DNA from: Sphingobacteriia bacterium
GTDB taxonomy: Bacteria > Bacteroidota > Bacteroidia > Chitinophagales > Chitinophagaceae
NCBI GenBank assembly: GCA_004294135.1
Contig: RDZY01000017.1
Location: forward strand, 1-64,000
DNA: 64,000 nt
Direction of reading: 5' to 3'
This document shows, piece by piece, positions 3,142-36,420 of the stretch. How positions within the stretch are numbered: position 1 is the first letter of the stretch; the number at the start of each line of letters is the position of its first letter. Under the pieces are notes generated by a model, which saw only the letters and a list, made by a program, of their open reading frames with translations, ran no database searches and was not told where the DNA came from. A program made the translations under genes and the position numbers.

Positions 3142-5856
3142 TTATTCTAAAATAGGACTCAACCAACGTTCTGCAGTGGGCAAATCCATTCCTTTTCTTT
3201 TTGCATAATCTTCTAGCTGATCGCGCTGTATTTTTCCAATACCAAAATACTGGCTCTGTGGATGCGAAAAATACCATCCACAAACCGATGCTGCTGGATA
3301 CATTGCTAGGCTTTCTGTGAGTGATATTCCTGCATTTTGTTCTGCGTTCAACAGTGCAAATAATTTGTATTTCTCCGTATGATCGGGGCAGGCTGGATAA
3401 CCAGGGGCAGGCCTGATACCCATATATTGTTCTTTTATTAATGCTTCGCTGCTGAGGTTTTCATTGCTATCATAACCCCAAAATTCTTTTCTGGTATGTA
3501 AGTGTAACGCTTCTGCAAAAGCTTCGGCAAAACGATCTGCCAATGCTTGCAACATAATTTTATTGTAATCGTCTAATGCTTCTTCAAACTTTTTCAAGTG
3601 TGGCTCAATACCATGAATACTTACAGCGAATGCACCCAAATAATCTTTAGCATCATTGGTTGAATTTGCTGGCTTTATAAAATCAGCCAAAGATAAATTG
3701 GGCTGGCCGGGTGCTTTTTTAATTTGTTGGCGATGAAATGAAATTACGGTTGTTTCATTGGCCACTTTCACATTTATATCATCTCCATCACTTGCTGCTT
3801 CCCAGAAGCCGATTACTCCTTTTGCATTCAACCATTTTTCTGCTATTATTTTATCGAGTAAGGCGTTGGCATCATGGTATAGTTTAGTGGCTTCTTCACC
3901 TACTACAGCGTCGGTGAGAATGGCTGGAAAATTGCCATGCATCTCCCAGGTAATAAAGAAAGGCTTCCAATCAATCAACTGGCGGAGCTCATTTAAGTCG
4001 TACTGATCAAATATTTTTATTCCAGTAAAACTCGGTTGAATGGGTTGGTATTGATCCCAGTCAACTTTCACTTTATTTTGTAAGGCTTCTGCATAAGGCA
4101 GGTATTGCTTCACTACTTTTTTGTTATCGAAATCTGTTTTTAACTTAACGTATTCGGTACTCAACTCAGCTAAAAAAGGAGTTTTCAATTCTTTGTTAAG
4201 CAGAGATCCAGCTACTGTAACACTGCGTGATGCATCAAGAACGTGAACCACGCCGAGTTCGTATTCAGGCGCAATCTTAACGGCAGTATGCATTCTAGAA
4301 GTGGTAGCACCGCCAATTAATAAAGGCTGTTTCATATTGCGGCGCTTCATTTCTTTGGCTATATGAACCATTTCATCTAGTGAAGGCGTAATCAATCCAC
4401 TCAACCCAATAATATCTGCTTTTTCTCTTACTGCCGCTTCTAAAATTTTATCGGCAGGCACCATCACCCCAAGGTCTACAATATCATAACCATTACAACC
4501 CAATACCACACCTACAATATTTTTACCAATATCATGTACATCACCTTTTACGGTGGCTAATAATATTTTAGCAGCACCAGCAGTCTCTTCGTTGGTAGTG
4601 CCAGCGGCAATATGGGCGTTCCTGCGGTCTTCTTTTTCCTGTTCAATATAAGGGGTAAGAATGGCCACACTTTTTTTCATAACGCGTGCACTTTTCACCA
4701 CCTGTGGTAAAAACATTTTTCCTGCTCCAAATAAATCACCTACGATATTCATGCCATCCATTAAAGGACCTTCAATAACATCTAAGGGACGGGGATATTT
4801 TTGTCTCGCTTCTTCCGTGTCTTCATCAATATAATCGGTAATGCCGTTGATTAAAGAATGCGCTAATCTTTTTTCTACAGGCTCGGTTCTCCATACCTCA
4901 TTTTTAATTTCAACTTTACCTTTTGCTTTAACCCTTTCGGCGTGTACAATTAATTTTTCTGTGGCTTCATTGTTGTCGTTGTTTTTATTCAACAGCACAT
5001 CTTCACAGAGTTGGCGCAGAGTGGGTTCAATTTCATCGTACACTACAAGCTGACCGGCATTTACAATACCCATGTCCATACCCGCTTTAATGGCGTGAAA
5101 TAGAAACACAGCGTGAATTGCTTCGCGAACGTGGTCGTTACCACGGAAAGAGAAAGATACATTCGATACACCACCGCTTACTTTAGCTAGGGGCATAAGC
5201 CGCTTAATTTCTTGTGTAGCTTGTATAAAATCTACCGCATAATTATTGTGTTCTTCAATACCAGTAGCTACTGCAAAAATATTGGGATCGAAGATGATGT
5301 CCTGGGGATCGAATCCAACCTGTTCAACCAGTATTTTATAAGCACGGGCACAGATTTCGATTTTTCTTTCTTTGGTATCAGCTTGTCCCACTTCATCAAA
5401 TGCCATTACAATTACTGCTGCACCGTAAGCCCTGCAAATATGCGCTTGTTCAATAAATTTGGCTTCTCCTTCTTTCATGGAGATAGAGTTCACAATACAT
5501 TTGCCTTGCACACATTTTAAGCCTGCTTCAATAATTTCAAATTTAGAGCTGTCGATCATGATGGGGATGCGTGCAATATCGGGCTCACTTTGTACTAAAT
5601 TTAGAAAAGTGGTCATGGCACTTACCCCTTCTAAAAGTGCATCATCCATATTTACATCCAGCACCTGCGCACCGCTTTCTACTTGTTGGCGTGCAACAGA
5701 AAGAGCTTCTTCATACTTATTTTCTTTAATGAGACGGGCAAATTTTTTAGAACCAGTTACATTGGTTCGCTCGCCTACGTTTACAAAATTTGTTTCGGGG
5801 CGTATGATAAGTGGTTCAAGACCAGCTAGGCGTAAATATGGTTTGATGCTGTTCAT
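3142..5856 (-). CDS. metH: Methionine synthase, pterin-binding, cobalamin-binding and activation domains
   Basis: B12 motif [29 protein letters not shown]; pterin-binding [16 protein letters not shown]; activation domain [15 protein letters not shown]. Confidence 0.96.
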
Positions 5857-5859
5857 TTT

Positions 5860-6873
5860 CTAGATCGTTGTTTCAACTATAGGTAATGGTCTGGGTAAAA
5901 TTTTTCTTACATTATCTGCAATATGTTTAATATGGTCGGGTGTAGTGCCACAGCAGCCGCCCACAATATTTACAAAACCTTGTTGAGCCCACTCTTCAAT
6001 AAAATGTGCGGTTTCATGTGGTTGTTCATCGTATTCGCCCATGGCATTGGGTAAGCCCGCATTGGGATAGGCAGAAGTATAGCAGGAAGCAATTTGAGAT
6101 AATTCTTCAATATGGCTTCTCATATCGGCTGCTCCTAAAGCGCAGTTAAGCCCCACACTTAGGGGATTGGCGTGCATTACAGAGGTGTAAAAAGCTTCCA
6201 GTGTTTGTCCGCTTAAAGTTCTTCCAGAAGCATCGGTGATGGTGCCGCTGATCATCACGGGCAGTTCGGGAATTCCCTTGTCTCTAAAATACTTTTTAAC
6301 GGCATAGATGGCACCTTTTGCATTCAGGGTATCAAAGATGGTTTCAATTAAAATCACATCAACACCGCCATCTACCAATCCGCTTATTTGTTCGTAATAG
6401 GCACTGGCAACTTCATCAAAACTGACTGCTCTAAAACCTGGATTGTTTACATCGGGAGATAGGCTAAGGGTTTTGTTTAATGGGCCAATGGCACCTGCAA
6501 CAAATTTGGGTGAAGTACCAGGGTTTTCTGCTGTATATTCAGCCACTGCATTTTTAGCACAATGGGCAGCAGCAATATTCAGTTCATAGGCCAGCGATTG
6601 CATGTCGTAGTCGGCCATGGCAATTACCGTACTACTAAAAGTATTGGTCTCAATAATATCGGCACCAGCAGCTAGGTATTGCTTGTGAATATTTTTAATA
6701 ATATCGGGTTGGGTAATACAGAGCAGGTCGTTATTGCCTTTTACATCGCAATGCCAGTCTTTAAAACGTTCGCCACGATAGTCTGCTTCCTCTAAGCTAT
6801 GACGCTGAATCATGGTGCCCATGGCGCCATCAATAATTAAAATTCTCTTTGCTAATTCTTCTTTAATCTGCAT
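5860..6873 (-). CDS. metH: Methionine synthase, homocysteine-binding domain (separate ORF)
   Basis: [23 protein letters not shown]...; Zn ligand motifs GLNCALGA and [11 protein letters not shown]; immediately upstream of and in frame with the second ORF. Confidence 0.94.
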
Positions 6874-7039
6874 ACGTTTGGTTCAAACACCTTTTAAATG
6901 GTAGTTTAATACACCAATAAACGCCAGAATGAGTGGGGAGTTCACTTCAAAACGTTTATTAGTTCGATCAGTTCCGCATTTTACAACGGAAAATTCAGGC
7001 TGAACAATAAACAAATCCACCTGAATAAGTGCAAAGATA
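6874..7039 (-). promoter_or_regulatory. Structured 5' leader of metH with putative promoter
   Basis: Minus-strand TATCTTTG -7-like box (7032-7039); several complementary segments (see finding). Confidence 0.5.
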
Positions 7040-36204: not shown

Positions 36205-36420
36205 AAGCTGAACCATTAATAGGGGTAGCTTCTTTAACGTAAATTAATAGGGAATTGTGTGTAAATCACAAGCTGTCCCGCAACTGTAAGTAACCGAGTT
36301 TTTATCAGCACTATGTTCACTGTTTAACAATGGGAAGAACGATAAAAATGTTACAAGTCAGGAGACCTGCCTTTACTGTATTGAAATGCTTTCGTGGAAT
36401 GAAGCAGATCAAACGAATGG
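36205..36420 (+). ncRNA. Cobalamin riboswitch (AdoCbl/B12-type)
   Basis: Conserved core: AATAGGGAATTGTGTGTAAATCACAAGCTGTCCCGCAACTGTAAG ... AAGTCAGGAGACCTGCC, then TGCTTTCGTGGAATGAAGCAG; directly upstream of metE. Boundaries approximate. Confidence 0.95.

Follow-up and report, generated by a model that had tools for sequence, protein, structure and literature searches.

A conserved pseudoknot in methionine synthase leaders of the Chitinophagaceae, a probable divergent relative of the SAM-II and SAM-V riboswitches

The window, that is, the whole 64,000-nt stretch of DNA analysed here, belongs to a 2.6-Mb genome and carries on its minus strand a split methionine synthase, encoded by metH-N and the following metH-C. 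The leader of metH-N spans ~7027–6878 on the minus strand and contains an H-type pseudoknot RNA. An earlier note on this DNA had described a methionine synthase gene behind a set of complementary segments. The gene assignment is upheld by matches to PF02574 and to methionine synthase models, and re-reading of the window sequence located every segment as claimed on the minus strand, namely the box TATCTTTG at 7039–7032, TTCAGG at 7025–7020 with CCTGAA at 6999–6994, GTTTATTGTTC at 7012–7002 opposite GAAC-T-AATAAAC at 6965–6954, the inner hairpin TTCCG 6991–6987/CGGAA 6976–6972, and the downstream segment CGTTTATT at 6923–6916. The alternative downstream pairing exists as well, but its length had been put wrongly at 8 bp; it comprises 11 bp, including one G-U, between ACTAATAAACG and CGTTTATTGGT. 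The leader fold beats 198 of 200 dinucleotide shuffles (z -2.8). The features are listed below in the order of transcription.

7062–7059, minus strand: TTTG in the -33 position, read in the sequence
7032–7039, minus strand: Bacteroidota-type -7 box TATCTTTG, read in the sequence
7019–7025, minus strand: P1 5' strand, TTCAGG 7025–7020, extended by T7019, a possible U-G partner of G7000
7013–7018, minus strand: L1, GGATTT, candidate triplex strand; T7015–T7013 correspond to U10–U12 of SAM-II and G7017 to G8 (SAM-II residues: PMC3764141)
7002–7012, minus strand: P2 5' strand, made up of P2a GTTT 7012–7009, A7008 (A19 of SAM-II) and TTGTTC 7007–7002
6994–7000, minus strand: P1 3' strand, CCTGAA 6999–6994, with G7000 pairing with T7019
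6966–6993, minus strand: L3, variable in length and sequence, containing the inner hairpin
6954–6965, minus strand: P2 3' strand GAAC-T-AATAAAC, pairing with 7012–7002; bulged T6961 (U44 of SAM-II), A6960 and A6959 (A45 and A46), T6958 (A47 in SAM-II), then the P2a strand AAAC 6957–6954
6913–6923, minus strand: anti-pseudoknot strand CGTTTATTGGT, forming 11 bp with the P2 3' strand at 6963–6953 (-11.7 kcal/mol); its other partner, when the P2 3' strand is occupied, is ACCAAACG beside the start codon
6875–6917, minus strand: sequestering hairpin, TTGGT 6917–6913/ACCAA 6882–6878 over TTAAAC 6909–6904/GTTTGA 6888–6883
5860–6873, minus strand: metH-N, 337 aa, homocysteine S-methyltransferase part of the split methionine synthase, the predicted regulated gene (PF02574, E 6.9e-101; methionine synthase models)
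3142–5856, minus strand: metH-C, 904 aa, pterin-, B12- and activation domains, next in the operon (PF00809, PF02607, PF02310, PF02965)

Among homologous leaders, a TAnnTTTG-type box lies directly 5' of P1 in 184 of 197, compared with 9 of 197 for a control stretch. Since the box sits just before P1, the 75-nt aptamer at 7027–6953 should open the transcript, which is predicted to start at or slightly before P1. A transcription start downstream of the paired region, which had been named as an argument against a regulatory RNA, is thus not what the sequences suggest, the promoter box being upstream of P1.

Each of the 30 metH-N loci retrieved from the window's genus has the element, with a common layout of a variable P1 whose loop holds an invariant GATTTGTTTATTGTTC, followed by a variable loop in which a hairpin may occur and an invariant GAACTAATAAACG. 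The hairpin in L3 is kept with altered sequence in many relatives and is missing in others, and the 3' end of L3 is A-rich in most of them. We then assessed covariation in 100 leaders over 17 pairs (P1 6, P2 11). P1 shows double-sided changes at all six pairs, with 92% of cells paired, and the whole structure has 96.5% of cells paired; in each whole-structure measure it surpasses 500/500 shuffles and every slid control. P2, with its 11 pairs and one bulged U, is nearly invariant. Specifically, its double changes are U-A to C-G at pair 2 (three sequences of family f13), C-G to U-A at pair 11 (seven sequences of family f17) and G-C to A-U at pair 1 (one sequence), and they arose in separate lineages; because pairs in the middle of P2 show little or no variation, covariation supports only the ends of this helix. 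The compensatory changes in P2a fix the register, and the base after C-U-A-A is therefore a U facing an A and not a bulge. This base, at 6958, is T in 100/100 leaders, and in L1 the A and the three Ts are conserved in 100/100 and the G in 99/100. Conservation and covariation in orthologous leaders, together with the absence of any known Rfam family at the leader, thus bear out the proposal of a pseudoknotted, previously unrecognised cis-regulatory RNA whose helices exclude each other. All these findings confirm that the metH leader RNA with its exclusive pairings is real.

When 399 genomes of the order were searched with a covariance model built on P1 and sequence, 132 had the RNA, including 122 of 135 Chitinophagaceae genomes, the rest being in the sister families f13 and f17, at one copy per genome with a single exception. 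A lone match of weak score in family f22 (L107, genome G085) and the class-wide matches L155–L162 were rejected as chance, as they have no metH and have lost P1 or P2. Outside the order, 395 genomes of the class yielded just one probable contaminant, L154 in genome G1068; this contig of another order has a leader sequence identical to L135 of Chitinophagaceae and lies in a bin with 4% contamination, and we attribute it to misbinning. Viral contigs contained no copies. A genome-wide DNA pattern gave at least 80 matches; the 80 listed are Bacteroidota or unnamed metagenome records, and among the matches listed most are Chitinophaga, Ferruginibacter, Flavihumibacter, Terrimonas, Sediminibacterium, Hydrotalea or Chitinophagaceae. 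The RNA is followed by metH-N within 700 nt in 198/207 distinct sequences; the remaining ones are at contig or locus edges, stand before metH-C, or have one gene inserted ahead of metH. In L174 (MAG Chitinophagaceae nzgw141, 5656–6810, minus strand), a membrane-protein gene resembling by eye the Na+/H+ antiporter NhaA lies between the RNA and metH-N, apparently governed by this leader as well. In the f13 genome G048, metH-N is found elsewhere without the element and the RNA precedes metH-C, and the AUG of f13 metH-C abuts the P2 strand (AACUAAUAAG-AUG). The RNA therefore tracks methionine synthase rather than a syntenic block. We found no description of it in the literature searched, with the 2017 list of 224 motifs and most subscription papers outside its scope.

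Rfam 15 gave no relevant match to the metH leader at gathering or permissive thresholds. The earlier note had likewise recognised no SAM consensus, and here it erred, since beside real SAM-II sequences the core is nearly base for base the SAM-II/SAM-V pocket, with one diagnostic difference. For this comparison we used RF00521 hits and RF01726 hits fetched from the phylum. In SAM-II the relevant residues are U10, U11 and U12, U20, U21, G22 and C23, and G42, C43, U44, A45, A46 and A47, with G8 in a triple, and A47 contacts the amino and carboxylate groups of SAM (PMC3764141); those of SAM-V are U8, U9 and U10, A18, U19 and U20, the bulged U47, and A48, A49 and A50 (PMC6061858). The metH RNA shares with SAM-II the H-type pseudoknot with L1 before the P2 5' strand, the G8-N-U10-U11-U12 stretch as GAUUU in L1, and A19-U20-U21-G22 opposite C43, the bulged U44, A45 and A46, the last set in 100/100 leaders at every column. 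The order of elements, GAUUU, P2a, AUUG, P1' and C-U-A-A with a bulged U, is common to both, and so is the kind of gene controlled, as the metH RNA precedes metH-N or metH-C, both methionine genes. Two features are absent: the equivalent of A47, a contact residue in SAM-II, is U in 100/100 metH leaders, and the equivalent of the C23-G42 pair, which forms a triple with G8 in SAM-II, is U-A in 100/100. Additionally, the equivalents of U12 and A19 are spaced by 4 nt in the metH RNA and by 6 nt in RF00521.

The SAM-II long loops family (RF01726; Weinberg 2010, PMC2864571) resembles the metH RNA in its succession of P1, GAUUUG, P2a, AUUG, P1', a long variable loop, C-U-A-A and P2a', and is found in the same class of bacteria and the same pathway. 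The fetched RF01726 loci read GAGG-AAAGAUUUGA-CUG-AUUGCA-ACCUC...UGCUAAAGCAG, and the metH RNA reads CAGG-CGGAUUUG-UUU-AUUGUUC-GGCCUG...GAACUAAUAAACG. The two differ in that RF01726 has CUAAA where the metH RNA has CUAAU, C(A)/(U)G in P2b after AUUG instead of UUC/GAA, CUG/CAG in P2a instead of GUUU/AAAC, and metK instead of metH as its gene; neither model matches the other. All 20 fetched RF01726 hits in class Bacteroidia (L312–L331) are upstream of metK, as judged by N-terminal sequence, and many of them start directly after a TAnnTTTG-like box. A descriptor consisting of P1, GATTTG, ATTG, the first P2b pair and CTAA finds the metH RNA and 11 SAM-II loci, with one site in the window and none in 2.87 Mb of shuffled sequence. 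The RF01726 model reached its cut-off in 0 of 40 Chitinophagaceae genomes, in the window's own family a further RF01726 search gave no match and RF00521 none over the cut-off, the metH leader staying below the Rfam gathering threshold, and the model built from the metH RNA (R2) detected none of the fetched SAM-II loci. Because the covariance models fail to cross-detect, the relationship to SAM-II is drawn from core and topology, not from scores.

SAM-V (RF01826; PMC6061858) shares the topology, the U-bulge in P2, the third strand U-U-U, and a P2a at the ribosome site with a translational OFF model, and differs at A50, which makes the A50-A18 contact at the aminoacyl end and is U in the metH RNA. 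Its model was silent in the window and in every one of 297 genomes of the phylum (0/297), a set in which no positive control gave a signal. Search algorithms also sort SAM-II and SAM-V apart (PMC2704228). SAM-I (RF00162) has an unrelated fold with a four-way junction (PMC6061858), gave no match at the metH leader or anywhere in the window's own genome, and resembles the metH RNA in location: other families, and also genus g26, have it at this site ahead of metH. The cobalamin model RF00174 did not match the metH leader either; its only match in the window is at 36206–36388 (plus strand, 85.4 bits), before metE according to the earlier note, and with this placement the RNA switch of one methionine synthase would differ from that of the other. 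A Group II intron match (RF00029, 58.3 bits) lies near the window start at 291–366 on the plus strand. Together, architecture and pocket place the metH RNA in the SAM-II/SAM-V superfamily, apparently as a divergent variant new to Rfam 15; because the defining contact was looked for and not found, we do not file it under RF00521, RF01726 or RF01826.

Next, we analysed the region between P2 and the start codon. In 26 of 198 leaders, referred to as direct, P2 ends 1–14 nt before the AUG, so that P2 itself covers the initiation region. In the other 172, referred to as long, the distance is 50–298 nt; farther downstream they carry a CGUUUAU(U)AGUUCA-type sequence that is complementary to the P2 strand. 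The pairing of this anti-strand has a median of -8.1 kcal/mol, compared with a shuffled mean of -4.5 kcal/mol, and reaches p≤0.05 in 66% of the 172 leaders. When P2 is held in the pseudoknot, the opening cost of the start region rises in 104 of the 172 leaders and falls in 13, with a mean change of 1.56 kcal/mol (0.01 in shuffled leaders; p ~1e-18), where the p-values overstate independence because the leader sequences are related. The shuffled leaders also rule out the folding constraint alone as the cause of the closure. For the window leader, constrained folding gives an opening cost of 4.75 kcal/mol, rising to 10.49 kcal/mol with the pseudoknot, and the outer part of the sequestering hairpin is predicted in the pseudoknot state only. 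These data predict occlusion of the start codon by the pseudoknot.

The ligand was approached through the relatives. Rfam recognises SAM-I in the metH leader of nine relatives that belong to the order but to other families, and among 13 Chitinophagaceae members without the metH RNA it occupies the same place in three, while ten have neither. Most of these ten have a promoter box within ~30 nt of the start codon; in L337, L338, L339 and L341, which lack the RNA, the -7 box lies so few nucleotides before the metH AUG that a leaderless mRNA is suggested. In the genus of the window, 17 of 51 genomes have one SAM-I, elsewhere in the genome, and the loci read are followed by a gene similar to cystathionine synthase/lyase genes or by one that, judged by eye, resembles homoserine dehydrogenase. 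Separately, two members of family f2 (L038 and L040, genomes G037 and G058) share another type of metH leader, in which a TATCTTTG box is followed by the conserved GTTATCTAAGTCACTGG ... GATTATTCATTTAAC; this leader has no Rfam match, a similar stretch follows SAM-I in L041, and it is possibly another unrecognised leader RNA.

Our model is that the 5' end of the metH mRNA would form a small SAM-II-type riboswitch, comprising P1, an L1 (GGAUUU) that would occupy the P2 major groove, and a P2 with a bulged U in which the P1 loop pairs with a downstream strand. SAM, the end product of the pathway, would bind the putative L1/P2 triplex and stabilise P2, thereby taking up GAACUAAUAAACG. In the 26 direct leaders the occupied strand would be the ribosome landing site itself, just 5' of the AUG. 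In long leaders, including that of the window, GAACUAAUAAACG would otherwise be paired to the anti-strand CGUUUAUUGGU; once freed, CGUUUAUUGGU would pair with ACCAAACG before the AUG and close a hairpin over the start codon. In both designs the ligand would lead to less methionine synthase, a direction of control that these pairings predict as translational OFF. We consider it probable that the metH leader is such a translational SAM OFF switch and a divergent variant of the SAM-II/SAM-V superfamily.

SAM is most likely the ligand, because SAM-I alternates with the metH RNA, the sulfonium-sensing triple is kept, and metH is the target. The same scaffold might instead serve a changed ligand, such as S-adenosylhomocysteine or a different methionine-cycle metabolite carrying an adenosyl group, with the A47-to-U change altering recognition of the amino-acid end. 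The one direct-contact base that departs, U in 100/100, is indeed the reader of the methionine tail, a change of a conserved pocket base usually marks altered specificity (compare the guanidine-IV variants of PMC9788692), and SAM-I coexists elsewhere in 17/51 genus genomes. Such a switch would represent a new riboswitch specificity fixed across Chitinophagaceae, yet we regard it as unlikely: the sulfonium-sensing U.A-U triple and the adenine-reading U are retained, SAM-I takes the same place in relatives, and the predicted direction, OFF, is the one expected for SAM.

Transcription attenuation by the same RNA in long leaders could account for the many leaders in which 50–298 nt separate P2 from the AUG and an alternative hairpin is strong, and SAM-II members are mostly transcriptional (PMC6061858). 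Leaders read by eye, however, lack a clear U-run after the hairpin, direct leaders are too short for a terminator, and start-region accessibility shifts as in a translational switch, which together make attenuation a rather improbable mode of control here. The extreme conservation of the P2 sequence is what a protein site can show, and a leader bound by an RNA-binding regulator or by its own product would need no small molecule; that the conserved bases fall on the SAM-II pocket and not on a free site, and that the 5' UTR of direct leaders is almost wholly aptamer, renders such a leader very improbable. Finally, a promoter box stands immediately upstream, as it would for a conserved promoter or operator element of the DNA with chance pairing and no regulatory RNA. 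This reading is already contradicted by the covariation, as compensatory changes in both arms of P1 and P2 and the variable loop lengths are not explicable by a DNA site, and we give it almost no credence.

As a probable translational SAM switch, the metH RNA would supply the missing regulator of methionine synthase for a large bacterial family, one that is absent from Rfam 15. It would also offer a natural experiment on a well-studied riboswitch pocket, in which nearly all contacts are kept and one conserved contact is replaced, and it makes testable both the reading of the methionine tail by SAM-II-type RNAs and the possibility of new ligands on their scaffold. Inside one family, SAM-I and a SAM-II-like RNA swap places before one gene.
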